Source: a bacterium (GTDB lineage: Bacteria; UBP6; JAFGXH01). From it: a stretch of DNA of 7,686 bases. Both the position numbers and the translations under genes were made by a program. The stretch is from contig JAMOQH010000143.1 of the NCBI GenBank assembly GCA_027064085.1, forward strand, positions 1-7,686, in the 5' to 3' direction. The notes below the pieces were generated by a model. It ran no database searches. It had not been told where the DNA came from and worked only from the letters and a program-made list of their open reading frames with translations. Positions 191 to 7,686 of this stretch are shown one piece after another. Position 1 is the stretch's first letter; each line of letters opens with the position of its first letter.

Positions 191-2479
191 TCAATATTTC
201 TGCGATAAAGTAAGGATTTTCTTCACCCTATTATTCCAATTATTATCTTTTATAAAATTGCTAATAGCTTTTTTATTAAAAGAAATTTTGTTCTCAAGAA
301 CTTTTTCAATTAACTTAGCAAATTCTAAATAATCTTTAGCTAACAGAACACCTGGTATATAAGATATCTCAGGATAATACATGCTTACCACGGGTTTTTC
401 CATGGCTAAATATTCATAAATTTTTAATGGATTTACATATTTAACAATATTGTCATTTTCAAAAGGTATAATGGTGCAATCTGAATAAAACAAATATGAA
501 GGCAACTCGTATTGTATCTTTAATCCAAGAAAGTATATGTTTCTTAAGTTAGAGATATTTTTTATTTTTTCAAGAGGAATTTCTCCTATAAAAACAAAGT
601 TGACATTAGAAAGCTTTAAAGCACAATATCTTACGAGATCCCAATCAAACCACTCTCCCCACAAAGCACCAATATATAAAACCGTTCGTTTGTTATTAGA
701 AGGAAAATCATTAGGCTTTTGATAAGTATAAGATGGATTAAACAACAAATCATTTACAGCGTTTGGAACAAGATGAATATTTTTTTCTGTTTTATGTTTT
801 AATTTCTCCTGAAGAGATGATGCAGAAGCAATAACAAAATCCGAGATAGTTAGAAATTTATCTTCAATCATTTCCTTATACCAAGAAGCACCTAAGCTTG
901 AATTCCAATTATCTATATAATCATAAATTAAATATGGCTTTTTATCCCACCTACTCACTTTTAAGAAAATGTCTAAAAACTTTTCGTGGGGCATTTCCGA
1001 GATAATATATGAATTTTCTAACAACGCGTAATAATCTTTATATATTCGTTGTATATCAAATTTTTCTACAGGAAATAATTCGAGCAAGGAATAGTCTATA
1101 TCAAAAAAAACTTTTTTCATTTCTTCGCTACTCTGATAAATATTAACAAAAAAAACCTTATAATTGTTTCTAATAAATTCGCATGCTAATTGAGCACCTC
1201 TTTGCCCTCCACCGGAATCTGTTATAGGTACGCCACTCAAAATAACAACAATACCTTTAATATTTCTTTTTTTAATTTCTATAGCGCTTCTTTGTTTTAT
1301 ACCTTTTTTTATACCTTTTGTATAAACATTATTTGATGCGTCATTATATCTTTGTGGATACAAATAATATGATAAGCCATTTATGCCATCCCCATACCAA
1401 TATCTCAATGTCTTGTTATACATATCTTTTTTTTGTGTCGGTATCTCCCAATATAATATAGATTTTTCGGCAAAAATCCATTTTCGAGATTTTCTTCTAT
1501 ACATTAAACTAAAATATGTATCTTCACCTGTGTTAGGAAGATACTCAGGAAATAATCCACATTCTAGCGCTACGCTTTTTTTAATAATCATAGATGAACC
1601 TGAGGGTAGATATTCATTTAAATATAAATTTTCCCAGTCGGTTATAAAATCGTTTTCTTTATTTTCTTCTCCATAAGCAAGATATTTACAGGCTACAAGA
1701 TCAACACTTTCATCTTCTTGAAAATAAGGAATTGAATACAAAAAATAATTTTTATCGTAAACACAACCCGAATCACATAAAGCAATGATCTCATTTTTAG
1801 ACAACTTAATGCCTACATTGCGTTGTTTGCCAATATTTCTTAGAGAGCTTTTTATTAAAATAATATTAATTGAGGGAGTGCTTTGGATTATTTCTTTTAT
1901 AATTTTTATAGTACTATCAGACGAACCACCATCAACAATAATTATTTCTGAAGGTTTTGAATTTTGTTCGATGAGAGACATTAGCGTATCTCTTATAAAA
2001 CTCTCTTCGTTATAAACAGGCATTACTACAGAAAAATCTAACGTATTTTTATTAAATATTTTTTCTTTTCTTGTAAAATTAATAGGTTTTTTGCTTTCTA
2101 TATAAAGATACGGATTAAAACTTTTTGTTGCATGGGTTTCTTTTAAAACATCGTATTGTCTACTTTTTTCAAACAATGAGCGTAAAGCCCTATATATTCG
2201 CCATATTATTGATATTTTCTCTCTAATGGTATAGTATTTTGAAGCTATTTTCCAAAAGTTTGAATTATATATGTTATTCAATTTACTAATGTAATCTTGA
2301 ATAATAAACTCTTTTGTCCCCAGCTCATGTTTTAACTCTTTCATTTCTTGTTTCTTGGATTTAATAATTTCTAATAATATATCAACCTCTTCTTTACTTA
2401 TACGTTTCATTTCTAATTCTAATGTCTTTTCGATAAAGTGGGAATTATCTGCATTTTTTGCCAAAATTTCTTTTTCCAT
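191..2479 (-). CDS. Two-domain glycosyltransferase: N-terminal helical region, GT2 (GT-A) domain, C-terminal GT-B (GT1/GT4-like) domain
   Basis: A 762-residue cytoplasmic or membrane-associated enzyme, probably adding two sugars in surface glycan synthesis. Residues 15-105 are charged and helical, likely coiled coil, ending in the 'NSNFWKIASKYYTIREK' type of segment often seen before glycosyltransferase domains. Residues 148-345 are a GT2 domain: VVMPVYNEE (151-159), VDGGSSDST (182-190), CDSGC at 235-239 in the place of the metal-binding DxD, and GEDTYF (318-323) supplying the likely catalytic acid/base region. Residues 408-755 look like a GT-B fold: SGGGQRG (422-428), VPNAVN (571-576), YIGAL (602-606) and the nucleotide-sugar motif PLKIYEYLAMEKPVV (684-698). 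No membrane span is evident. The start is supported by GGAG 11 nt upstream. It is the last gene of the block, 171 bp after the preceding gene, and its stop abuts the transposase remnant. Donor and acceptor sugars cannot be read from sequence. Confident of the class, not of the substrate. Confidence 0.9.
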   Translation of the reverse strand: MEKEILAKNADNSHFIEKTLELEMKRISKEEVDILLEIIKSKKQEMKELKHELGTKEFIIQDYISKLNNIYNSNFWKIASKYYTIREKISIIWRIYRALRSLFEKSRQYDVLKETHATKSFNPYLYIESKKPINFTRKEKIFNKNTLDFSVVMPVYNEESFIRDTLMSLIEQNSKPSEIIIVDGGSSDSTIKIIKEIIQSTPSINIILIKSSLRNIGKQRNVGIKLSKNEIIALCDSGCVYDKNYFLYSIPYFQEDESVDLVACKYLAYGEENKENDFITDWENLYLNEYLPSGSSMIIKKSVALECGLFPEYLPNTGEDTYFSLMYRRKSRKWIFAEKSILYWEIPTQKKDMYNKTLRYWYGDGINGLSYYLYPQRYNDASNNVYTKGIKKGIKQRSAIEIKKRNIKGIVVILSGVPITDSGGGQRGAQLACEFIRNNYKVFFVNIYQSSEEMKKVFFDIDYSLLELFPVEKFDIQRIYKDYYALLENSYIISEMPHEKFLDIFLKVSRWDKKPYLIYDYIDNWNSSLGASWYKEMIEDKFLTISDFVIASASSLQEKLKHKTEKNIHLVPNAVNDLLFNPSYTYQKPNDFPSNNKRTVLYIGALWGEWFDWDLVRYCALKLSNVNFVFIGEIPLEKIKNISNLRNIYFLGLKIQYELPSYLFYSDCTIIPFENDNIVKYVNPLKIYEYLAMEKPVVSMYYPEISYIPGVLLAKDYLEFAKLIEKVLENKISFNKKAISNFIKDNNWNNRVKKILTLSQKY

Positions 2480-2650: not shown

Positions 2651-3886
2651 TCACTCTATGCTATTCAAAGCCTTATCCAAAAGCTTTGCCCTATTTTCCC
2701 AAGAAAAATATTCTATGGCTTTATCATCTCTATGAAATTTTATTTTATTTTCATAAAGCAACGTTATTTTTTTGTAAATTTCTTTATAACTATTTTTACA
2801 TACTAAACCACACCCCAATTTTTTTGTTAATTTGATTAATTGATCTTTATCATTTTGATAAATCATTAATATTGGAGTCCCTGATCCTAAATATTCATAA
2901 AATTTTCCGGGCACTTGCTCTATTTGCTTATTGGATAGATGAATCAACAAGTCTGCTCTATTTTGTAACTTCAGTATATATTTATGTGATCTAAACCCCA
3001 AAAATTTATATTTCTTTCCGAGCGGTTTAAATAAATAATTAAATTGCTCATTCCTTCCAGCTACTATAAATCTAAATTTAAAATCAAGCATCGACAAAGC
3101 CTTTGCAATTTCGAATGGATTTCTGAAATCTTTATAAAAAGTCCCCGTATACACCATAGTAAAAATTTTATTTTTACTATTTTGCTGCTTAAGTTTAATA
3201 TTGAAACCCTGTTCTAATATTAAATGTTTCTTTTTTTCTAAATACGAGTATTTATTAGTCAAGCTATTATAAACCGTCTTGTTTGTAAATATAAGTAAAT
3301 CTGTATTTTTATAGATTTTATTCTCTATTTTATTTTCAAAAAATAGTTTAAATTTCGGCGTATAAATGGATACATAAGGATCTCCGAAATCTCCCACCCA
3401 TTTTATTCTAGGGTTTTTCTTTTTTATATATAAACCAAGCAAAGAATCAACCCATGGTTCGTGCGATGTGATTAGAAAATCATAATTTTGAACATTTATG
3501 TAATTATTAAAGTATTTTTTCACAAAAGGATACCACTCAGTCGTAATATTTCCTGGAAAAATTGCACCAAAAAAACTACGAAATAGAAAATATATACTCT
3601 TCGCAGCTTTAAATTTTAATGAGATTCTTTTTTTTTCATTATCACTATCGCCAACCCCAATTTTATTTTTGATTTTATATGCTACACTCTCAAAAAAACC
3701 AGGATATACCCTGTGTATAGTTATGTTATTATGTATTTTATAATCAAGAGGTGCCGGATGTTTAATTGTTACAACATCAATATAATATCCAAGTTTTGCT
3801 AATTCTTGACTTAAATAATACCATCTTAATGATTGAGCATCTTCTAATGGTGGAAAAGCGTAAGCTACAAGTAAAATTTTTTTCAT
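2651..3886 (-). CDS. GT-B glycosyltransferase (GT4-like), surface polysaccharide synthesis
   Basis: A 411-residue protein with the usual two Rossmann-like halves of GT-B enzymes and the usual length. The N-terminal, acceptor-side half starts [19 protein letters not shown], where the 'FPP...qs.R...ls..La..G..VdVvT' pattern (11-40) is typical of GT4-like enzymes of polysaccharide and LPS operons. GDFGDPY (165-171) matches the 'DFRDPW'-like segment of the same group. The C-terminal donor-binding half contains [13 protein letters not shown] (245-257), a Rossmann strand FIVAGR (273-278) and [17 protein letters not shown] (324-340), with Glu331 where the nucleotide-sugar-binding Glu normally lies. 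It ends with a [14 protein letters not shown] helix. No signal peptide or membrane segment is seen. The ATG overlaps the wecB stop (ATGA), and AGGAAA lies 6 nt upstream, so it is translationally coupled to wecB. The sugar transferred is unknown. It could plausibly be the ManNAc made by the neighbouring epimerase, but that is inference. Confidence 0.9.
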
Positions 3887-5022
3887 ATCGTATTTCCTAA
3901 ATATCTAACAATTCTACTACTTGCTTTACCGTCTCCGTATGGGTTTATGGCTTTTGCCATTTTAACATACTCGCTTTTACTATTTAGCAACTTTTGAGTT
4001 TCATTCACAATCTTTTCTTTATTTGTTCCTACTAGCTTTACGGTACCAGCAACAACCGCTTCAGGTCTTTCTGTCGTATCCCTAAGAACCAGAACAGGCT
4101 TTCCTAATGACGGAGCTTCTTCCTGAATTCCTCCGCTATCCGTAAGAATTAAATAACTCTTCTCCATTAAATATACAAATTCAGGATACTCAAGAGGGTT
4201 TATTAAATGAATATTTTTAATGTTCGATAAAATTTCAAATACAGGTTTTTGCACATTAGGGTTTAAATGAACAGGGTATATTATGTCTATATTTTTATTG
4301 CTCAAAGCTATTTCTTTTAAGGCATTGCATACATCAAGAAAACCTTTCCCAAAATTTTCTCTTCTATGACCTGTAACAAGTATGAATCTTGAATGTTGAA
4401 CATCAATCGCTAAATTATTTGTTTTCAATGTCGAATATATTTTATTTTGCAAATTTTTATCGTTTTTTATTTTTTCAAGCATTAAAAAAAGAGTATCTAT
4501 TACAGTGTTTCCTGTAATAGCAATATTCTCATCTTTGATCCCTTCTTTCAGTAAATTATTTTTAGCCATAGTCGTAGGTGCAAAATGATATTTGGCTAAA
4601 ACTCCCGTAAGTTTTCTATTTGCCTCTTCCGGCCAAGGAGAATAAATGTTACCTGTTCTTAGTCCAGCTTCTATATGTCCCACATCTATTTTTTGATAAA
4701 ATGAAGCAAGTGTCGCACTAAAAGTTGTAGTAGTATCTCCATGGACCAACACCAAATCAGGTTTAAATTCACTCAACACATTTTCCATTCCTAACAAAAT
4801 ATTTGCGGTAATATCATATAAATTTTGGCGTGATTTCATAATATTTAAATCATAGTCCTGCGTAATATCAAATATTTTCAAAACCTGATCAAGCATTTCT
4901 CTATGTTGTGCAGTTACACATATCTTTAATTTAAAATCCTTTACTTTTTGAAATTCTTTTATTAAAGGCACCATTTTTATGGCTTCAGGCCTTGTTCCAA
5001 ACACTATTAAAATCTTTTGCAT
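3883..5022 (-). CDS. wecB: UDP-N-acetylglucosamine 2-epimerase, non-hydrolysing
   Basis: Interconverts UDP-GlcNAc and UDP-ManNAc in the cytoplasm, supplying ManNAc-type sugars for surface glycans. At 379 residues it is full length for the family (E. coli WecB is about 376) and the signature segments are all present: [14 protein letters not shown] (8-21), [10 protein letters not shown] (37-46), VHGDTTTT (93-100), [10 protein letters not shown] (115-124), SPWPEEANR (128-136), GNTVIDTL (171-178), TGHRRENFG (217-225), YPVHLNPNV (249-257), [10 protein letters not shown] (294-303) and [11 protein letters not shown] (313-323). Residues matching the E. coli catalytic set by position are Arg11, Asp96, Glu118, Glu132 and His219, so the enzyme should be active. 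It starts 4 bp after the OpgB-like gene with a good ribosome binding site and overlaps the next glycosyltransferase by 4 bp. No UDP-ManNAc dehydrogenase (WecC) is beside it, so the product may be used as ManNAc or oxidised by an enzyme encoded elsewhere. Function is confident; the symbol follows E. coli usage. Confidence 0.96.
3893..3898 (-). promoter_or_regulatory. Ribosome binding site of the GT4-like gene, inside the end of wecB
   Basis: AGGAAA on the minus strand, 6 nt before the ATG at 3886. It lies within the last codons of wecB, and the ATGA overlap suggests coupled translation. Confidence 0.6.
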
Positions 5023-5026
5023 ATTT

Positions 5027-7393
5027 TTAGTCCTCTTTATAAAAACTTACCTTTAAATTAACAGCTTTACCCCATTGCCAATTATTTTCAATATTCTTTT
5101 GCGCCTGCATAATAATCATAATCTTATGATCATTAGGGCTTAGTTTAATATCTATGAAACTCTTTTTGTTGCTGGCTATGTCTTCTTGCAGGATCACATT
5201 GTTTCTGTAAATTACCTTATACTTAATACGATTACGGTAAGAGATATTGTTGTATGTATCGTAAATAACAAATTTAGCTTTAGAAATATCTTTTTTGTAG
5301 CGCAAAATGACCACCGCTTGTTCTAAAGGCTTTGGATTAGGTTTATTGAATTTTATAACTAAGCCATACTTAAAATTTTTAATGACTGTATTGTCAAGTA
5401 CTGATATTTTATTAGGTATGCTAAATATTCCATGCAATTCACTTATATTTAATTTAAGTTTGCAAACATTATGAAAATGATTTCCAAACACCCAAACATA
5501 CCAATTATCGGGTAGAACTACTGCATCCTTTAAATGAATGTTACCATCATAATAAGAGCCGTTTTGCGTTTCTAAATATATATGAATAGTTCTAAAAAAC
5601 TTTTTTGTTTGAAAGAATAACATATTATCATCAACAGAGTAATAAGCTTTATAGTTATCCGTAGAGAAGTTTCTATATTTTTCTATATTCGGAAAGAAAT
5701 ATTTTTCTATCTCACTTCTAGATATATTCTTAATGTCAGCTCCATAAGAATACAAACTCTTAATCTTTCTTTTAGAATTTCCACTACTTATTCCAACGGC
5801 GGTTATCCAATTTTCAGCATTAATCATACGCCTTAACTTAAAGTCTTTCTTGTTAACAAAAATTTTATTTATATGATTCTTATCAAGTTTTTTCAACGCA
5901 TTTCCACCAAACATAAATTTTGCATTGGTTTTTATGTTTAATAAAGGTAATAATGTTTGAACAAAATCTATGTGGGCAGTTTTCTGAGTAATTTTTTTAT
6001 TATGCTTACCGTCATAAATTAAAACCAAAACGCGCCTATTCATGTGTTTTAGTTTACTTGCGTAAATATCAAAATTTTGCAAATGGTCTCCTAATATAGC
6101 TATGACCAGACTATCGCTTCCAGGAGTAGAGAGAATTTTCTTAATTAATTTTTTTAGAAGATAATCGGTACAATGATAAGATTGAAAAAAATGATTTTCA
6201 GAGAACTTTCCTACATATCTTGGACAGGAAGGAGATGGTGTGCCATTATGAGTATCTATGGTTATTAATGTTATATTAAATAATTTTCCTGTTCTAAGAT
6301 AATTCTTATTTAATTCTAAAAATTTTTTATAGACATACTCAAACAACTCGTCGTCATAAATACCCCATGAATTAAGCTGTTTGGAATGAGACGGCAACTC
6401 TTTTTTTCCATATAACTCATTATAATGGTGTTTTCTATAAAAATCACCTTTATGCTCATACTCTAAATCTGCAGCACCCATATACACTTGATAATAACCT
6501 GCTTTATGGAGCACATCCCCCAAACATATAAGGTTTTTAGTGTCTTTATAATAATATACCGTTCCACACTGTGAAGCAACCATGCCTGCTATAGTAAAGT
6601 CAGCTCCCGGTATCATTCTATCATTTTCAAAAGATACAGAATCCTCCCAAAATTGCTGCAAAAAAGGAGACAAATTATTAAAGTATTTTTTTTCAATAAA
6701 TTCTTTTTCATATGATTCTAAATATATCAAAAGCAGATTCTTTTTTTTAGACGATACAGAAGCGTATAGATTAATCTTGGGCAATTTACATTGCAATACA
6801 GTTTTTTTGTATTTTTGATAATGTAAAAATTTCCAAATGAACAATGAAAAACTATTCGGGGTTAAAATAAGCAAAATAAGAATACAGATAGTAGATGCAA
6901 CTAATACTATTGGTCCTTTTTTATCTATATTTCCTCTCTTTTCTATTTTTCTGAAAATCATATAAACTATAAAGAAACTTAGAATAAAAAATAAAGTCAA
7001 CAAGGTAGAATAGAGAGGAAAAAGCTGCAAAGCTTTCTTAACAGACTCAAAACTCAATAAGTTAAAAAATCTAATATCAAACGTTCGATGCTGAAATAAT
7101 ATTAAAACAGTATCAGCAATGGAAAAAAATAGCAATATCATATATAATGCTGTTACAAATCTTGATATAATTTTTTTTGGGAATATACTCACTAAAAATA
7201 TCAACAAACCTATAAATGGCAATGGCAACACGAATCTCAACTTAAAATCAAACAATATCGAAAATAGAATAAAAGGTATAGATAATAATAACCAATAAAA
7301 GAAAAAATACATAAATCTACTAAACAAAATAGACCTCAACTTTAAACCAATTCCTAATAGATTATACATAATTTTACACAATATTCCATTCAT
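5027..7393 (-). CDS. OpgB/MdoB-like membrane phosphoglycerol transferase (LTA synthase/alkaline phosphatase superfamily)
   Basis: A 788-residue inner-membrane protein, close in length to E. coli OpgB (763). Five hydrophobic segments lie at about 26-49, 53-72, 78-100, 127-147 and 161-180, followed by a large extracytoplasmic domain. That domain has the OpgB layout: [10 protein letters not shown] (223-232; Glu226 a metal ligand), [15 protein letters not shown] (263-277; Thr267 the nucleophile), ICLGDVL..AGY (289-300), [16 protein letters not shown] (314-329), WGIYDDELF (343-351), ITIDTHNG (377-384) and LGDHL (434-438; Asp436-His437 metal ligands). All expected catalytic residues are present. 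Residues from about 500 to 788 are rich in beta-strand-like sequence and end in [13 protein letters not shown]. OpgB moves phosphoglycerol from phosphatidylglycerol onto periplasmic glucans. Here the position upstream of wecB and glycosyltransferases suggests that a surface polysaccharide is the acceptor (inference). The transferred group could also be different. No ribosome binding site precedes the ATG at 7393. An alternative ATG at 7369 is no better, so the longer form is kept. Confidence 0.88.
5031..5036 (-). promoter_or_regulatory. Ribosome binding site of wecB
   Basis: AGAGGA on the minus strand, 8 nt before the ATG at 5022. It lies within the last codons of the upstream OpgB-like gene, supporting cotranscription and the wecB start. 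Confidence 0.7.
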
Positions 7394-7435
7394 TTTGTTT
7401 GTTAGTTAATATAATTTTATGTATTATTTTACTGA

Positions 7436-7458
7436 ATAACTGACCTTACGCACTCCCT
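7436..7458 (+). repeat. Left terminal inverted repeat of the MITE-like element
   Basis: 23 bp, the perfect reverse complement of 7541-7563. The match ends abruptly on the outer side (7435 and 7564 do not pair). Confidence 0.9.
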
Positions 7459-7540
7459 ACCCATATCTCAATTTCCTTAACTCACTCATTGCAGCCATAT
7501 TTGCTTTGATAAGTATTTTTGCTTATTAAAAAAATGATTT

Positions 7541-7563
7541 AGGGAGTGCGTAAGGTCAGTTAT
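7541..7563 (-). repeat. Right terminal inverted repeat of the MITE-like element
   Basis: 23 bp, the perfect reverse complement of 7436-7458. On the minus strand its ...AACTGACC supplies the TGA that ends the peptidase fragment. Confidence 0.9.
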
Positions 7564-7686
7564 CAGATTCTAAAGAACCATATGTAGCAAATGCCCAGCA
7601 TGTATTATAAGGATTTTGATTTTTGATTGAAGTAACAAGATTCTGCTCTCTTAAATCATATTTCACAGGCAGTGGTAGCTCCTTCA
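7556..7686 (-). pseudogene. Papain-like (C1 family) cysteine peptidase, truncated at the MITE-like element
   Basis: The minus-strand frame is open from the window edge to a TGA at 7558-7556 and encodes [18 protein letters not shown] followed by [20 protein letters not shown] and SDN. This is the start of a mature papain-type domain. 'YDLR..nlVt.iKNQ' leads to the oxyanion-hole Gln (7618-7616), and six residues later comes the catalytic Cys (7600-7598) in CWAFA. The Q-x5-C-W spacing is that of papain (Gln19, Cys25). The TYGSLES that follows fits the first helix of the domain. The frame then enters the inverted repeat and stops two codons later. The rest of the domain, with the catalytic His and Asn, is missing, and the 42 bp beyond the element do not resume it. 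The product would therefore be inactive. The N-terminal part, any signal peptide and the true start lie outside the window. The original protein was probably exported, as bacterial C1 peptidases of this type usually are (family knowledge). Confidence 0.82.

Follow-up and report, generated by a model that had tools for sequence, protein, structure and literature searches.

Organization of the locus

The window analysed here is one entire contig (C143) of 7,686 bp, position 7686 being the contig end. It belongs to a fragmented genome bin of 195 contigs and 3.65 Mb in total, with a GC content of 26%, from a sparsely sampled bacterial group. In the following, the readable bin refers to the binned contigs of at least 3 kb. 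The window contains the following features:

191-2479, minus strand: two-domain glycosyltransferase, polysaccharide block
2651-3886, minus strand: glycosyltransferase, polysaccharide block
3883-5022, minus strand: UDP-GlcNAc 2-epimerase, polysaccharide block
5027-7393, minus strand: membrane sulfatase / LTA-synthase-like protein of 788 aa, the first polysaccharide-block gene beyond the element (ATG at 7393)
7436-7563, no strand: inverted-repeat element of 128 bp, with 24-nt perfect arms and 80 nt between them
7436-7459, plus strand: left arm, ATAACTGACCTTACGCACTCCCTA
7440-7559: element core of 120 bp, CTGACC...GGTCAG
7540-7563, minus strand: right arm, which gives the peptidase frame its AAC codon and TGA stop
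7556-7684, minus strand: Peptidase_C1 fragment of 42 codons plus TGA, cut at its 5′ end by the contig end and at its 3′ end at the element
7560-7686: terminal 127 bases, starting at the base after GGTCAG, equal in length to one assembly k-mer and interpreted by us as a vertex at which the assembly graph branches

The start of the sulfatase-like gene is separated from the inverted repeat by 42 nt. At the left contig end, positions 1-190 contain no recognisable gene, and the open frame of 63 residues found there has no significant family match. A synteny search in relatives gave a single 27% domain match to the 788-aa protein, in one genome, and no intact locus for comparison.

A papain-like peptidase gene interrupted at the element

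The initial annotation had reported a clear C1 motif on the minus-strand frame, and profile searches bear this out. The fragment matches the Pfam family Peptidase_C1 (PF00112) above the Pfam cut-off, with 29.3 bits and an E-value of 1.2e-6 over profile positions 1-37 of 220, and it also matches solved papain-like peptidases (mexicain, E-value of 8.6e-7). As in the papain family (PF00112 / MEROPS C1A), the sequence from DLRE onwards aligns with the start of the domain and contains the oxyanion Gln and the catalytic Cys. Unlike full members of the family, it comprises 37 of the 220 profile positions, its own start being lost at the contig end and the region of the catalytic His and Asn being absent.

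The peptidase frame is intact up to the edge of the element, with the catalytic motif undamaged, and halts 13 residues past the Cys. As the initial annotation had described, it ends two codons into the repeat: a GAT codon straddles the edge of the arm, while AAC and the stop codon TGA (7558-7556) lie inside it. To the right of the element, only about 125 bases of peptidase sequence are present before the contig ends. The fragment is part of a real C1 (papain) peptidase domain, interrupted at the element. Its product, if made at all, is predicted to be dead, as it would lack the catalytic His and Asn.

The possibility that homologues naturally end at this point had been raised together with the initial annotation. 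It does not hold for the closest matches in other genomes, since in all seven of them the open frame runs on beyond the motif for at least about 500 aa, and in most of these seven relatives the His and NSWG motifs are located 130-185 residues after the Cys. In the window, we confirmed that the C-terminal part does not resume to the left of the element, where the next gene begins at the ATG at 7393. The initial annotation had further proposed that the missing C-terminus might lie next to another copy of the element. Throughout the readable bin, the outcome was negative for both: the Peptidase_C1 profile search revealed no separate C-terminal piece of a peptidase, and no second copy of the element was found (see below). 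Viral contigs contained no peptidase stump either.

The Peptidase_C1 matches obtained elsewhere in the bin are two other complete and unrelated genes, on contigs C23 and C61, rather than a loose half. One of the two encodes a protein with a Lectin_like domain, a domain for which the search of the bin gave a match in C23 only, while the product of the other is a lipoprotein in which Cys-rich, EGF-like segments recur.

The inverted-repeat element and its relation to MITEs

The two arms of the element, whose end sequence is CTGACCTTACGCACTCCCTA, show 100% complementarity along their 24 nt and contain 11 G+C each. In a sample of about 730 kb of this bin's contigs, it is the longest perfect inverted repeat with arms within 400 nt of each other, the runner-up having 19 nt. 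In addition, the single-strand fold of the element has a z-score of -10.65 with respect to shuffled sequences. The inverted repeat thus exceeds what is expected by chance. Inside the element there is no open reading frame of at least 50 aa; no match to a known RNA family was obtained, and no intrinsic terminator was found. A palindromic TA is present at each outer edge. The flanks share at most these 2 nt, with no clear target duplication beyond them; the TA edges are compatible with a 2-nt target duplication, which makes an insertion plausible.

The initial annotation referred to the element as MITE-like. Disruption of genes by small elements is well known, and the present case is ordinary in this respect. 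The size, the terminal inverted repeats and the non-coding nature of the element all agree with that label, given that bacterial MITEs are about 50-600 bp long and that MITEAba12 of Acinetobacter, for example, has 111-114 bp (PMC6382973) as compared to 120-128 bp here. As with MITEs, the element is found in AT-rich surroundings, where it sits in a coding frame and stops it. Unlike MITEs, it came without a second copy, a parental insertion sequence or a convincing target duplication, and its flanks are not the two halves of one gene. The part of the label that implies a repeat family, i.e. sequences repeated in the genome or in its relatives, was not upheld: the element is MITE-like by form, its membership of a MITE family being unproven.

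The search for further copies was carried out at several levels. At up to 3 mismatches per 20 nt, the readable bin yielded no second copy; 98 other genomes, among them those of the same family, yielded none at up to 2 mismatches, and the whole 128 bp had no match in 60 other genomes. The element ends were also absent from viral contigs. Among 84,980 species genomes, the ends gave one match, located inside a Micavibrio coding sequence with no partner arm, which we took as a chance match, and plasmids and phages gave weak chance matches only.

The test for a parental insertion sequence covered DDE transposase loci. Two such loci were found, on C45 and C176, neither of them with ends matching those of the element. 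The one on C176 (1171-1842) encodes an ISAs1-like transposase with DDE_Tnp_1_assoc and DDE_Tnp_1 domains and runs off the end of its contig; the region upstream of it showed no match to the element ends. C45 (3238 bp) is a small contig of its own that encodes a 625-aa DDE transposase of IS1634-like size.

The contig ends one k-mer beyond the element core

In an assembly graph with k=127, contigs normally terminate in a branch vertex, formed by their final k-mer. Overlaps of exactly 127 bases were seen for two sets of ends in the contig sample, one set belonging to a single circular contig, and we read these overlaps as indicating a de Bruijn assembly of the SPAdes type with k=127. Because the tail of the contig past GGTCAG is exactly 127 bases long, i.e. 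equal to k, it suggests a branch of the assembly graph at the edge of the element. This in turn suggests that, in the sample, 7560-7686 is also preceded by another sequence on its left, namely in a version of the peptidase gene that is free of the element. The initial annotation had considered that the fusion point could be recent and strain-specific, and the same distance of 127 nt lends indirect support to this idea.

By our own estimate, the 127-base coincidence would arise by chance in about 1-2% of cases, and it should be noted that this comparison was chosen after the fact. No second contig with the same terminal 127 bases is present in the readable bin (binned contigs of at least 3 kb only). 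The branch could instead be located to the right of 7686. With its 120-124 bp, the element falls short of the k-mer length, and its copies alone would therefore not merge in the final graph.

A disrupted allele is the preferred explanation

Since the left flank contains no continuation of the peptidase, the junction requires either a second event, such as a deletion or a recombination with a copy outside the bin, or a false join. The view of the initial annotation that this is not a simple insertion is therefore reasonable, all the more as the flanks share at most the 2-nt TA. We give a slightly better than even chance to a real rearranged allele, i.e. a population-variable, MITE-like insertion accompanied by the loss of the adjacent part of the gene. 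According to this explanation, a short, non-coding and presumably mobile MITE-like element of 120-124 bp would have inserted into the gene of a putatively secreted papain-type (C1A) peptidase. A deletion adjacent to the element, or a recombination at it, would then have removed the C-terminal part of the peptidase and placed the element directly before the polysaccharide operon. Only some members of the population would probably carry the disrupted allele, and the contig would break at the point of the assembly graph where this allele converges with another version of the gene.

If real, this is a further example of protease-gene disruption and rearrangement of a surface-polysaccharide locus by a tiny non-autonomous element. 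More generally, a contig end that falls exactly one k-mer beyond an element can hint at an insertion polymorphism in the sample, and apparent 'fusion' genes located at the end of a contig call for confirmation by reads. The main rival explanation, which we consider rather unlikely, is that the join is an artefact of the assembly or of chimeric reads: the element would be present in two places, once before the polysaccharide operon and once in the peptidase gene, and reads or low-k contigs that cross it would have linked the wrong flanks at the contig end. The contig does stop about 125 bases past the element, the bin is broken into 195 contigs, some of which (C176, C45) terminate within an insertion sequence or are made up of one, and the repeat together with the flanking ATAA/TTAT measures 128 nt, just at the limit set by k=127. 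Against a false join, the readable bin contains a single copy of the element, with no visible partner for confusion, and as the core falls below the k-mer length, read-supported 128-mers that span it are required in the final graph.

Two other explanations appear improbable to a similar degree. In the first, the element is an invertible promoter that switches the polysaccharide operon, with the peptidase stump as an old remnant alongside. A short segment that is flanked by inverted repeats and precedes polysaccharide genes is a feature shared with the Bacteroides-type invertible capsule promoters; the 24-nt perfect arms, the 80-nt spacer and the 42 nt before the first polysaccharide gene resemble phase-variable capsule promoters, and three tyrosine recombinase genes are found elsewhere in the bin. 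Unlike in the Bacteroides-type systems, however, promoter sites are at chance level here (two in 7300-7686, one of them in the spacer, vs. 2.2 expected), and there is no recombinase adjacent to the element or anywhere on the contig. Furthermore, the repeat interrupts a coding frame, and the presence of both orientations would be expected to create a branch vertex at 7540-7666 and thus a contig end at 7666 rather than at 7686.

In the second, the peptidase is simply an old pseudogene that had decayed, the hairpin having arisen or inserted later, with no variation in the population. This would account for a stump without a continuing C-terminus, but the frame shows no damage before it reaches the element and still has an intact catalytic motif, which would make any decay very recent, and the 127-base arithmetic is left unexplained. 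Finally, it is very improbable that the 128-bp segment works as an active DNA switch, or as a site of recombination, alternating between an intact peptidase gene and the polysaccharide operon, in which case a secreted protease and a surface polysaccharide would be exchanged by rearrangement in the population.

A circular phage-like contig in the same bin

The ends of contig C147 (7556 bp) are identical over 127 bases, which closes it to a circle of 7429 bp. Its genes encode a Zot-type ATPase, a secretin, a replication protein of the GPA/G2P type and a 491-aa surface protein, and it appears to be the complete genome of a filamentous (inovirus-like) phage within the bin.
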